Source: Methanosarcinales archaeon (GTDB lineage Archaea > Halobacteriota > Syntropharchaeia > Alkanophagales > Methanospirareceae). From it: a stretch of 46,605 nt of DNA. Both the position numbers and the translations under genes were made by a program. This document shows positions 31,161 through 45,109 of the stretch, one piece after another. The notes below the pieces were generated by a model. It did not search any database. It saw only the letters and a program-made list of their open reading frames with translations, and was not told where the DNA came from. The number at the start of each line of letters is the position of its first letter. Position 1 is the stretch's first letter. The stretch covers positions 1-46,605 of the forward strand of contig JAUWQN010000005.1 of assembly GCA_030611045.1 (NCBI GenBank), read 5' to 3'.

Positions 31161-32300
31161 CTATTGGGTATGATGATGCAGCATAGCCTTCACAAATCTT
31201 CGCTTTATCTGCGATGCTCTTAGTGGTATGTTCTCCACGGTGGCGTTACCTGGTTTGACGACGACATGTAGAAATCTCGGACCCGCTTCTTCGTACAACT
31301 GCTCTAAGGCTGACCGCAGCTCCTCTTCTGTATCAACCCTCATCGTGTTCTCTATGCCGGCACTTATTGCCATCAATTCCATATCCATGTAGGGCGCGGG
31401 CTGGTCGCCTGTGCTCCCCCAGGTGCCGTTATCCAGGCAGACAACAGAGAGATTTTCGGGATTCTTCTCTGCCACTATCGGCAAAATGTTGCTCATCAAC
31501 AGACTACCATCGCCATCAAGCACTATCGTCTCTCTTTTCCTCTTCAACGAGACGCCGAATCCTATGGGTGAGGCTTGACCCAAGCTGCCGAGCATGTAAA
31601 AATTCAAATCACGGTCTTTAGCGGCATAAAGTTCCTTGCTCGGCACCCCTATGTTTGCGATTACGGCTTCTTCGTTCAAATATTCGGTCATTATTCGTAT
31701 CGCATCGTATCTGCTCATTTCTGGCTTCTTAAGCTCCCGTTCGTACACCAATTTACGAAGTGTTTTTTGGTGTTGGACTGCCGTATCATCTTCAATTGCA
31801 TTATCGGTTCCCCATGCTCTCGGCGAGATAAGTGCAATATGCGGTCTTTCAGTCTCGAAAGCATCTTGAATGACTGTTTCTACTAATCCTATCTGTGATG
31901 CGTCCTCTATTATTGTGTATTTCAGTTCCAACGCATCTAAAAGTTTGGGCAACGACCTACCAAACGGGATCTGCGCCTCTATATTCTCCTCGTAAACACC
32001 GCGCCAGCTCGCTATTATCGGTAACGGCAATCCATAAGCGACTGAAAGCGACATAACAGCATTTATCAAAGTACCTAAACCCGTGCTCTGGATAAGCATC
32101 AGGGGCTTCCCACCTGCGAGGTAAACGCCCGCAGAGATCCCAACGCCATTTTCTTCACGGTTCAAGCCTACGTGACAAAATGCGCGATCTCGCGCGACAA
32201 ACCGCAACAATGCACTTATTTTCTCACAGGGTAGCGTAGAGACAACGTCTATTTTGTTCCTCTTTAATATTTCTATTACTGCGCGTTCGGGTTCGTACAT
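31161..32300 (-). CDS. comDE: sulfopyruvate decarboxylase, fused alpha/beta (ComDE)
   Basis: N-terminal ComD-like (VSTLPCEKISALL...LNREENGVGISAGVYLAGGKPLMLIQSTGLG), C-terminal TPP half (GDGSLLMSNILPIVAEKNPENLSVVCLDNGTWGSTG). Confidence 0.9.
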   Translation of the reverse strand: MYEPERAVIEILKRNKIDVVSTLPCEKISALLRFVARDRAFCHVGLNREENGVGISAGVYLAGGKPLMLIQSTGLGTLINAVMSLSVAYGLPLPIIASWRGVYEENIEAQIPFGRSLPKLLDALELKYTIIEDASQIGLVETVIQDAFETERPHIALISPRAWGTDNAIEDDTAVQHQKTLRKLVYERELKKPEMSRYDAIRIMTEYLNEEAVIANIGVPSKELYAAKDRDLNFYMLGSLGQASPIGFGVSLKRKRETIVLDGDGSLLMSNILPIVAEKNPENLSVVCLDNGTWGSTGDQPAPYMDMELMAISAGIENTMRVDTEEELRSALEQLYEEAGPRFLHVVVKPGNATVENIPLRASQIKRRFVKAMLHHHTQ

Positions 32301-32306
32301 TGGTGT

Positions 32307-33635
32307 TTATAAAGCCCTAACAAACTCCCTCAGTTCCTTCTCAACGTCATCCAACGCCAAATGCTCAGAGGGTTGTAGCTCCATCCGCGCCTCTATCTCG
32401 TACATCTTACAATCCGCCCTCAACCTCTTATAGCCGCCTCCAGTGATATTCAACAAAATCTTATCATCCTTTTTGACTGATCCATCATCAACGGCTTTTA
32501 TTAAAGATGCAACCGCTACGGATGCCGCAGGATCCAAATCTATTCCCTCCTCACCCACAAATAATTTCTCTGCGTCCTTGCACTCTTCGTTAGTTATCCC
32601 GTACATCTTACCACTGTGGGGCTCTGCCCCACGACCCCGCAAGCCCTGTAAGGGCTTAGTGCTCATCAGCATGTCATAGACCCCTCCTTTGATTGAATAA
32701 GGCGGGTTCCTCGTGGAGAGCACGTCTGCGTACATCTTCTTTATCGCATCTTCAGCGTCTTTCATGTCTTTATCTGCGATTATCTCTGCTCTACCCGCCT
32801 GCCATGCACTGACCAGGGGAACAAAAGGAAGATTCTGCGAGATAACTATCCTCGGCATCTTATCGCCAAATCTACCATCTCCAATCAGCCTGCCAAAAGT
32901 TTCCCAGGCGGCAATTGCGCCCGTGCCGCTGCCCACTGCCTGGAAATAATAATCCGGCAATTCATGCATAGAGAACGCGGCTTCAAGCTCAACCACGCCC
33001 ATTCCATCCCGTCTTGCCACATTTCTCACTCCCCCTTCTTCTATTAGCCCGTCCATCTTCGCTATCTCTTTGCCGACCGCAATCGCATCCGAATAATCGC
33101 CGTCCACGGAGATTAAGAAAATGTTATCGTGGTTTTCCGTGGTCGTCCACATCCGATGGAGTGAACTTCTTGGCACTACCGCGACAACTGGCATTCCAGT
33201 CGCGGACGAGACCTCTGCGAACGCTCTTGACGTATTACCGGCAGAAGCCACGACTAAAATCTTCCCACCTGATTTCTCTTTTGCTCGTTGTAAAGTTGGC
33301 AGCGCTTCCAACTCCTTGAACGTGCAGGTCTTCATGAACGCCCCTTTTTCCGGCCAGTAACCGTTAAAGCCGATATACAAATTTTTCAGCCCGAGTTCTT
33401 TACCTAACCTCTCACTGCGGCACGTAATCGGACTTGCGCTTGTAGGTAACGCCTCTTCTACTGGCAACCAGTCTATATAATTGAACATCCCCTGCCCTGA
33501 AAGTTTCCTTAGCCTCTTTGCTTTATACTCTGTTCTTAACAACGAATCGTGACCTTCTGGGCACGCATTTGTATACCCGTCTGCAACTACTTTCCCGCAT
33601 TCAAAACATTCCAAATGATACTTCTCATTTTCCAT
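32307..33635 (-). CDS. cysteate synthase (threonine-synthase-like PLP enzyme)
   Basis: YIGFNGYWPEKGAFMKTCTFKELEALPT, VVASAGNTSRAFAEVS, YYFQAVGSGTGAIAAWE, SQNLPFVPLVSAWQ, LLNITGGGYKRL; operon with comDE. Confidence 0.88.
   Translation of the reverse strand: MENEKYHLECFECGKVVADGYTNACPEGHDSLLRTEYKAKRLRKLSGQGMFNYIDWLPVEEALPTSASPITCRSERLGKELGLKNLYIGFNGYWPEKGAFMKTCTFKELEALPTLQRAKEKSGGKILVVASAGNTSRAFAEVSSATGMPVVAVVPRSSLHRMWTTTENHDNIFLISVDGDYSDAIAVGKEIAKMDGLIEEGGVRNVARRDGMGVVELEAAFSMHELPDYYFQAVGSGTGAIAAWETFGRLIGDGRFGDKMPRIVISQNLPFVPLVSAWQAGRAEIIADKDMKDAEDAIKKMYADVLSTRNPPYSIKGGVYDMLMSTKPLQGLRGRGAEPHSGKMYGITNEECKDAEKLFVGEEGIDLDPAASVAVASLIKAVDDGSVKKDDKILLNITGGGYKRLRADCKMYEIEARMELQPSEHLALDDVEKELREFVRAL
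32616..32657. repeat. 42-bp double-palindrome element, copy 1 (inside cysteate synthase CDS)
   Basis: GTGGGGC-TCT-GCCCCAC / GACCCCGC / AAGCCCT-GTA-AGGGCTT; same architecture as 45009-45048 on the other strand. Confidence 0.85.
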
Positions 33636-45008: not shown

Positions 45009-45048
45009 AAACCCTTTCAGGGTTTGCGGGGACGTGGGCAGAGCCCAC
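45009..45048. repeat. double-palindrome element, copy 2 (intergenic)
   Basis: AAACCCT-TTC-AGGGTTT / GCGGGGAC / GTGGGC-AGA-GCCCAC. Confidence 0.8.
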
Positions 45049-45109
45049 GATGCTTAGGATTTAGGATTTCCCGCTTCTTATTGAGCACATACCAGTTAAG
45101 CTAAGCGGG

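Follow-up and report, generated by a model that had tools for sequence, protein, structure and literature searches.

The cysteate synthase gene studied here raises the question of how a conserved gene comes to hold, within its reading frame, 42 nt that fold into two hairpins, and whether these nucleotides are peculiar to that gene or belong to a dispersed element that has entered it. The gene lies in a stretch of 46,605 nt that was analysed as a whole (the window), the source of which is an ANME-1 (Methanophagales) archaeon with a draft genome of 1.54 Mb that is 99% complete. With its insert, the gene (32307-33635, minus strand) encodes 442 amino acids and adjoins a fused sulfopyruvate decarboxylase gene (31161-32300, minus strand), in which the alpha and beta subunits form one gene. 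At another locus, L065, the fused decarboxylase gene carries an element too.

A double hairpin within the cysteate synthase gene

The insert occupies 32616-32657 on the minus strand, where it reads ATG AGC ACT / AAGCCCTTACAGGGCTTGCGGGGTCGTGGGGCAGAGCCCCAC / AGT GGT AAG in context, and it encodes KPLQGLRGRGAEPH. Hairpin 1 (AAGCCCT-TAC-AGGGCTT, 32641-32657) is followed on this strand by an 8-nt linker (GCGGGGTC, 32633-32640) and by hairpin 2 (GTGGGGC-AGA-GCCCCAC, 32616-32632). This two-hairpin, 42-nt design had been proposed in a first-pass annotation of the DNA and was borne out when the sequence was re-read and folded as RNA and as DNA, the fold being exactly two 7-bp stems with 3-nt loops and the 8-nt linker (z -2.3 and -3.4). 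Other copies keep the stem of hairpin 1 by a paired change from AAG/CTT to AAA/TTT, and the outer pairs of hairpin 2 covary among copies, occurring as GT/AC, AT/AT, CGT/ACG, CGC/GCG, AAC/GTT and GTA/TAC. The outer pairing is partly a matter of construction because the end of the element was placed where pairing stops, but the variety of pair types is not.

That the insert stands in frame, as had also been claimed, is confirmed by the match to TIGR03844, which runs through it as a single stretch (E 2.8e-176). The solved cysteate synthase 9k3c is without the insert. Structure prediction from the single sequence was unusable (mean pLDDT 38) and merely suggests for the insert a position between a helix and a strand, a placement that agrees with the position of the gap against 9k3c.

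Alignment with orthologues revealed that the insert is no general feature of cysteate synthases. No insert is present at either of two positions in 19 of the 22 aligned orthologues of the family, and the site is empty in the closest of them (L047, 87% identical). The enzyme of L048 holds a 28-residue double element (84 nt) at the same codon as the window insert, and those of L059 and L065 hold a related 15-residue element, a 44-nt variant, at a different codon. Arrangements of an element within an element, like the 84-nt insert of L048, recur at five further loci. A separate observation concerns the cysteate synthase of L068 (genome G014), which is enlarged by long runs of glycine and aspartate at places unrelated to the element.

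Copy number and distribution

The genome from which the window comes contains 21 copies by BLAST and 22 by pattern search, and more are found in relatives. The reversed control pattern gave zero matches in every genome searched, so that some 20 copies in this genome are far beyond chance. The first-pass annotation had taken the insert for a protein-coding palindromic element, analogous in concept to those of Rickettsia, and had named two outcomes that would refute this: presence of the insert in cysteate synthases generally, and lack of further copies. As neither outcome was obtained, the reading is supported; dozens of copies lie in frame in other conserved genes, their translation being inferred. 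What is added here is that the element is a feature of the whole ANME-1 family. By pattern search, copies are present in 37 of 51 family genomes, with 0-197 per genome, and the relatives with the same sequence are nearly all labelled Methanophagales or ANME-1. Outside the family, only two of 346 other genomes of the phylum (G041 and G047) have a copy, and a single one each. The copy in G047, which belongs to another family, is perfect and lies within an rmlD gene (L043); this gene recurs in a contig catalogued as bacterial (QLTX01; L176), and transfer or mis-binning is possible.

The window itself holds a second copy, an intergenic 41-nt variant (AAACCCTTTCAGGGTTTGCGGGGACGTGGGCAGAGCCCACG) at 45009-45049 on the plus strand. 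Spread by viruses was rejected as IMG/VR viral contigs contain no exact match to either core sequence. Likewise, a known structured RNA was rejected, there being no Rfam match at gathering score at the element in the five loci tested (the window and four others).

Forms of the element and anatomy of insertion

The element occurs in forms of 42, 41 and 44 nt. The net gain is 42 nt at coding sites in cfbE, leuS, argC, wecB, TiaS and others, and the same holds between genes. For example, the intergenic junction GAAAAAAGAAAACC^TGTGCTAAAAGA occurs without an element in six places and with exactly 42 nt added in L085, and CCAATGACAAAT^ACTACCAAATCC, of which an empty form was found, is filled with exactly 42 nt in L118. 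The 41-nt form adds 41 nt (filled against empty in the context TCTGTGTTAAT), and the 44-nt form adds 45 nt in cysteate synthase and truA. No target site duplication was found at filled against empty sites, coding or intergenic, and terminal inverted repeats spanning the element were not seen, two separate hairpins being present instead.

T precedes the element in 92% and A follows it in 82% of copies, and coding copies show a weak preference for T-G-G at +3 to +5. The inverted symmetry of the flanks CACT/AGTG, which the first-pass annotation had described as extending the palindrome, is present at the window site, but pairing from flank to flank is not in excess across the element family. A flanking palindrome was on these grounds rejected as part of the element, and the symmetry at the cysteate synthase insert is incidental.

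Reading frames of the inserted copies

Long open frames hold 70 of the 162 non-redundant copies that lie away from contig ends. This share of 43% is not a census, because the sample of loci was partly picked for long open frames; in unbiased samples the coding share is 34/95, 9/16 and, in the window's own genome, 4/19. The element is open in four of the six frames and has a stop in two. Copies in open frames are distributed as 37 in forward phase 0, 16 in forward phase 2 and 2 in forward phase 1, with 12 in reverse phase 1, 3 in reverse phase 2 and none in reverse phase 0. The last of these has a stop inside the element and was never observed among open-frame copies, and forward phase 1 gives TAA whenever T precedes, both copies there having A instead. 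If frames were irrelevant, one third of the in-gene copies should bear a stop; against this expectation of 2/6 frames the avoidance of stops has p ~1e-11, or 4e-8 after strict deduplication. In open frames, moreover, the 42-nt forms are enriched and the 41-nt forms depleted (38:2 vs 23:9, p 0.009).

These frame and stop statistics bear on the possibility that the element is cut from the mRNA, as an archaeal intron of the tRNA-endonuclease type or by other splicing, leaving proteins without the insert. The hairpins are stable, the insertion is exact, and some sites fall within highly conserved motifs, for example NPYPVI-[insert]-IPCHRVV in ogt, all of which would suit an intron. Splicing would nevertheless make frames and stops irrelevant, which is at odds with the avoidance of stop-bearing frames. 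In addition, the 41-nt form is seldom found in genes and disrupted the only one that it clearly entered, and the flanks do not pair with each other. Splicing is therefore considered very unlikely. The fold itself consists of two simple hairpins. When genes split by the element were sought, three candidates were obtained, which were rejected as evidence of splicing: two are boundaries between different genes and only one is truly broken. In this last case (L183, ~5835, minus strand), a 41-nt variant within a cation diffusion facilitator (cation transporter) gene causes a frameshift and a stop, and it is the only clearly broken host gene found.

The same statistics argue against ribosomes jumping over the element, as they do over the 50-nt gap of T4 gene 60 or the byps of Magnusiomyces mitochondria, which are frame-disrupting inserts skipped by the ribosome (PMC5009743). 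Although length and hairpins are similar to those of byp inserts, byps break frames (PMC5009743), whereas the ANME-1 elements keep the frame and avoid stops, and bypassing can hardly be entertained.

Host genes and purifying selection

Matches to curated models span the insert in leuS, gyrA, polC (DNA polymerase D large subunit), RLI/ABCE1, wecB, pyrH, argC, an isopropylmalate synthase-like gene, cfbE, cfbB, radB, pheA, hypF, metG, RqcH and RNA 3'-phosphate cyclase. Further hosts recognised by Pfam are ogt, an NAD-dependent epimerase, RmlD and Pus10, and at three loci a gene carries two elements. At a second site in leuS, where the insert of L036 is complete, L225 retains a remnant (GRGAEPH) from which the initial half of the element is missing; this remnant is a loss through in-frame partial deletion.

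The hosts could be decaying pseudogenes, in which the frames are open by accident after recent insertion. The broken transporter gene of L183 would fit such decay, as would ogt, in which, in two species, two residues separate the end of the insert from the catalytic cysteine of PCHRV; tolerance of an insert so near the active site is hard to believe. On the other hand, the essential leuS, metG, gyrA, polC and RLI carry inserts without other damage, and dN/dS in host genes is 0.12-0.33 between species with the same insert, at dS up to ~1. As judged from these sequence comparisons, the host genes are under purifying selection, which renders the pseudogene explanation highly improbable. The avoidance of stop-bearing frames and the purifying selection on the hosts together imply that the insert is most likely translated, and neither spliced nor bypassed.

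Nearly all the genomes are metagenome assemblies, in which repeats can produce misjoins, and the coding copies might for this reason be chimeras assembled from a short repeat. One contig of the window's own genome, C60, does begin (1-59) with the left flank of cysteate synthase and the element and continues into a different gene, which may reflect either branching of the assembly or true recombination at the element. At each coding site, however, both flanks come from one gene, the assemblies are the work of several groups and assemblers, and identical sites carry the element in different species that were assembled independently. On account of this last recurrence above all, misassembly is given practically no credence as the origin of the coding copies.

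Uniformity of the element at shared sites

Between orthologous filled sites, identity is 98.5% (736/747) within the element and 83% (5313/6368) in the flanking DNA, and in a ThiI-like pair the element is identical at 42/42 positions at a host dS of ~1. As the identity of the element is far above that of its flanks, simple inheritance without homogenisation is insufficient. It is tentatively suggested, with more doubt than confidence, that the nucleotide sequence of the element is actively kept uniform inside its hosts and is not merely tolerated selfish DNA. Such uniformity could arise by gene conversion among copies, by cycles in which the element is precisely excised and returns to the same codon, or because the hairpins serve a structural function in the mRNA or the DNA. 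If true, the inserted element would be one that evolves in concert, is neutral to the frame and moves by a transposition chemistry as yet unknown.

Proposed mobility of the element

The explanation favoured, with considerable confidence, is that a non-autonomous mobile double-hairpin element of ~42 nt has multiplied in ANME-1, inserting cleanly as selfish DNA that is translated wherever it lies within a gene. The element family, its copy number, the clean 42-nt sites, the in-frame bias and the purifying selection are read from the sequences. On this basis, a small non-autonomous element with two GC-rich hairpins is taken to have multiplied in ANME-1 archaea; its common form adds exactly 42 nt without target duplication and favours T^A junctions, followed on the right by a weak motif (~ANTGG). 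Since 42 nt make up whole codons and four of the six frames are free of stops, a copy that lands in a gene would usually add a harmless 14-residue loop rich in glycine and proline. The host genes stay under purifying selection, and the element would be carried along as translated selfish DNA. Translation, neutrality and mobility through a trans-acting factor remain inferences, as there are no protein or RNA data. Such a factor has not been identified and would most likely work on single-stranded hairpin DNA or on RNA.

Across 51 genomes, copy number shows no correlation with the number of Y1, IS110 or RVT_1 genes (rho 0.07, 0.15 and 0.16), and the Y1 (RAYT/IS200) transposase, IS110 and reverse transcriptase were rejected as mobiliser because copy number is not tracked. 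Furthermore, no Y1 match was found in the window's own genome or in five relatives despite 22-98 copies, these genomes being incomplete.

Comparison with known repeat systems

Nothing relevant to the sequence of the element, its peptides or a comparable ANME-1 repeat was found in the literature, subscription papers being outside the scope of the search. MITEs, which include ERIC and Correia/NEMIS, have terminal inverted repeats and target duplications. The ANME-1 element resembles them as a non-autonomous repeat able to fuse in frame to genes but has neither of these two hallmarks, both of which were tested. REP/BIME sequences lie outside genes, bear a GTAG or CGTC tag and are mobilised by the RAYT (TnpA-REP, Y1) transposase. 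They share with the ANME-1 element the short hairpin repeat and the high copy number; it differs in having no GTAG/CGTC tag, judging from flank composition, in its many intragenic copies and in the absence of a Y1 match from six ANME-1 genomes with at least 20 copies, incomplete as these genomes are. Byps are likewise short inserts at many positions in conserved protein genes, but their disruption of the frame is not met by the ANME-1 element, which keeps the frame and avoids stops.

Double-hairpin elements (DHEs) of fungal mitochondrial DNA were reportedly described by Paquin and coworkers in 2000. They are short, dispersed pairs of adjacent GC-rich hairpins that are considered mobile (PMC4618339, PMC2800124). 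Two adjacent GC-rich hairpins with small loops were tested for and are shared by the ANME-1 element. However, DHEs are mitochondrial and lie mostly outside coding sequence, with no known in-frame insertion into dozens of chromosomal genes, whereas the ANME-1 element resides on archaeal chromosomes.

To our knowledge, in-frame palindromic elements in protein genes have so far been treated as a speciality of Rickettsia, where Ogata and coworkers are said to have described palindromic elements (RPEs) in 2000 and 2002. RPEs are characterised as 100-150 bp long, with one long stem, and as forming several sequence families in Rickettsiales (PMC2229807, PMC10969869). Both RPEs and the ANME-1 element are dispersed palindromic repeats that lie between genes and in frame inside unrelated conserved genes, are open in several frames and leave hosts that remain functional-looking. 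Dispersal and in-frame insertion are thus met, but a single palindrome of 100-150 bp is not, the ANME-1 element being 42 nt of two tandem hairpins, archaeal, present in up to 197 copies per genome and without any sequence relation seen. The ANME-1 element acts like an RPE but is unrelated in sequence, size and host, so that the first-pass annotation was right in calling it analogous in concept, which does not extend to membership of the RPE family. It represents an independent, archaeal instance, with copy numbers per genome that are far higher, and its insertions of exactly 42 nt, made without target duplication, point to a mobilising system that is still unidentified. Its hosts include core machinery (gyrase, DNA polymerase D, aminoacyl-tRNA synthetases and ABCE1) as well as the biosynthesis of coenzyme M and F430 in the main anaerobic oxidisers of methane. 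It also offers a natural experiment, and a large one, on the positions at which proteins accept a fixed insert of 14 residues.
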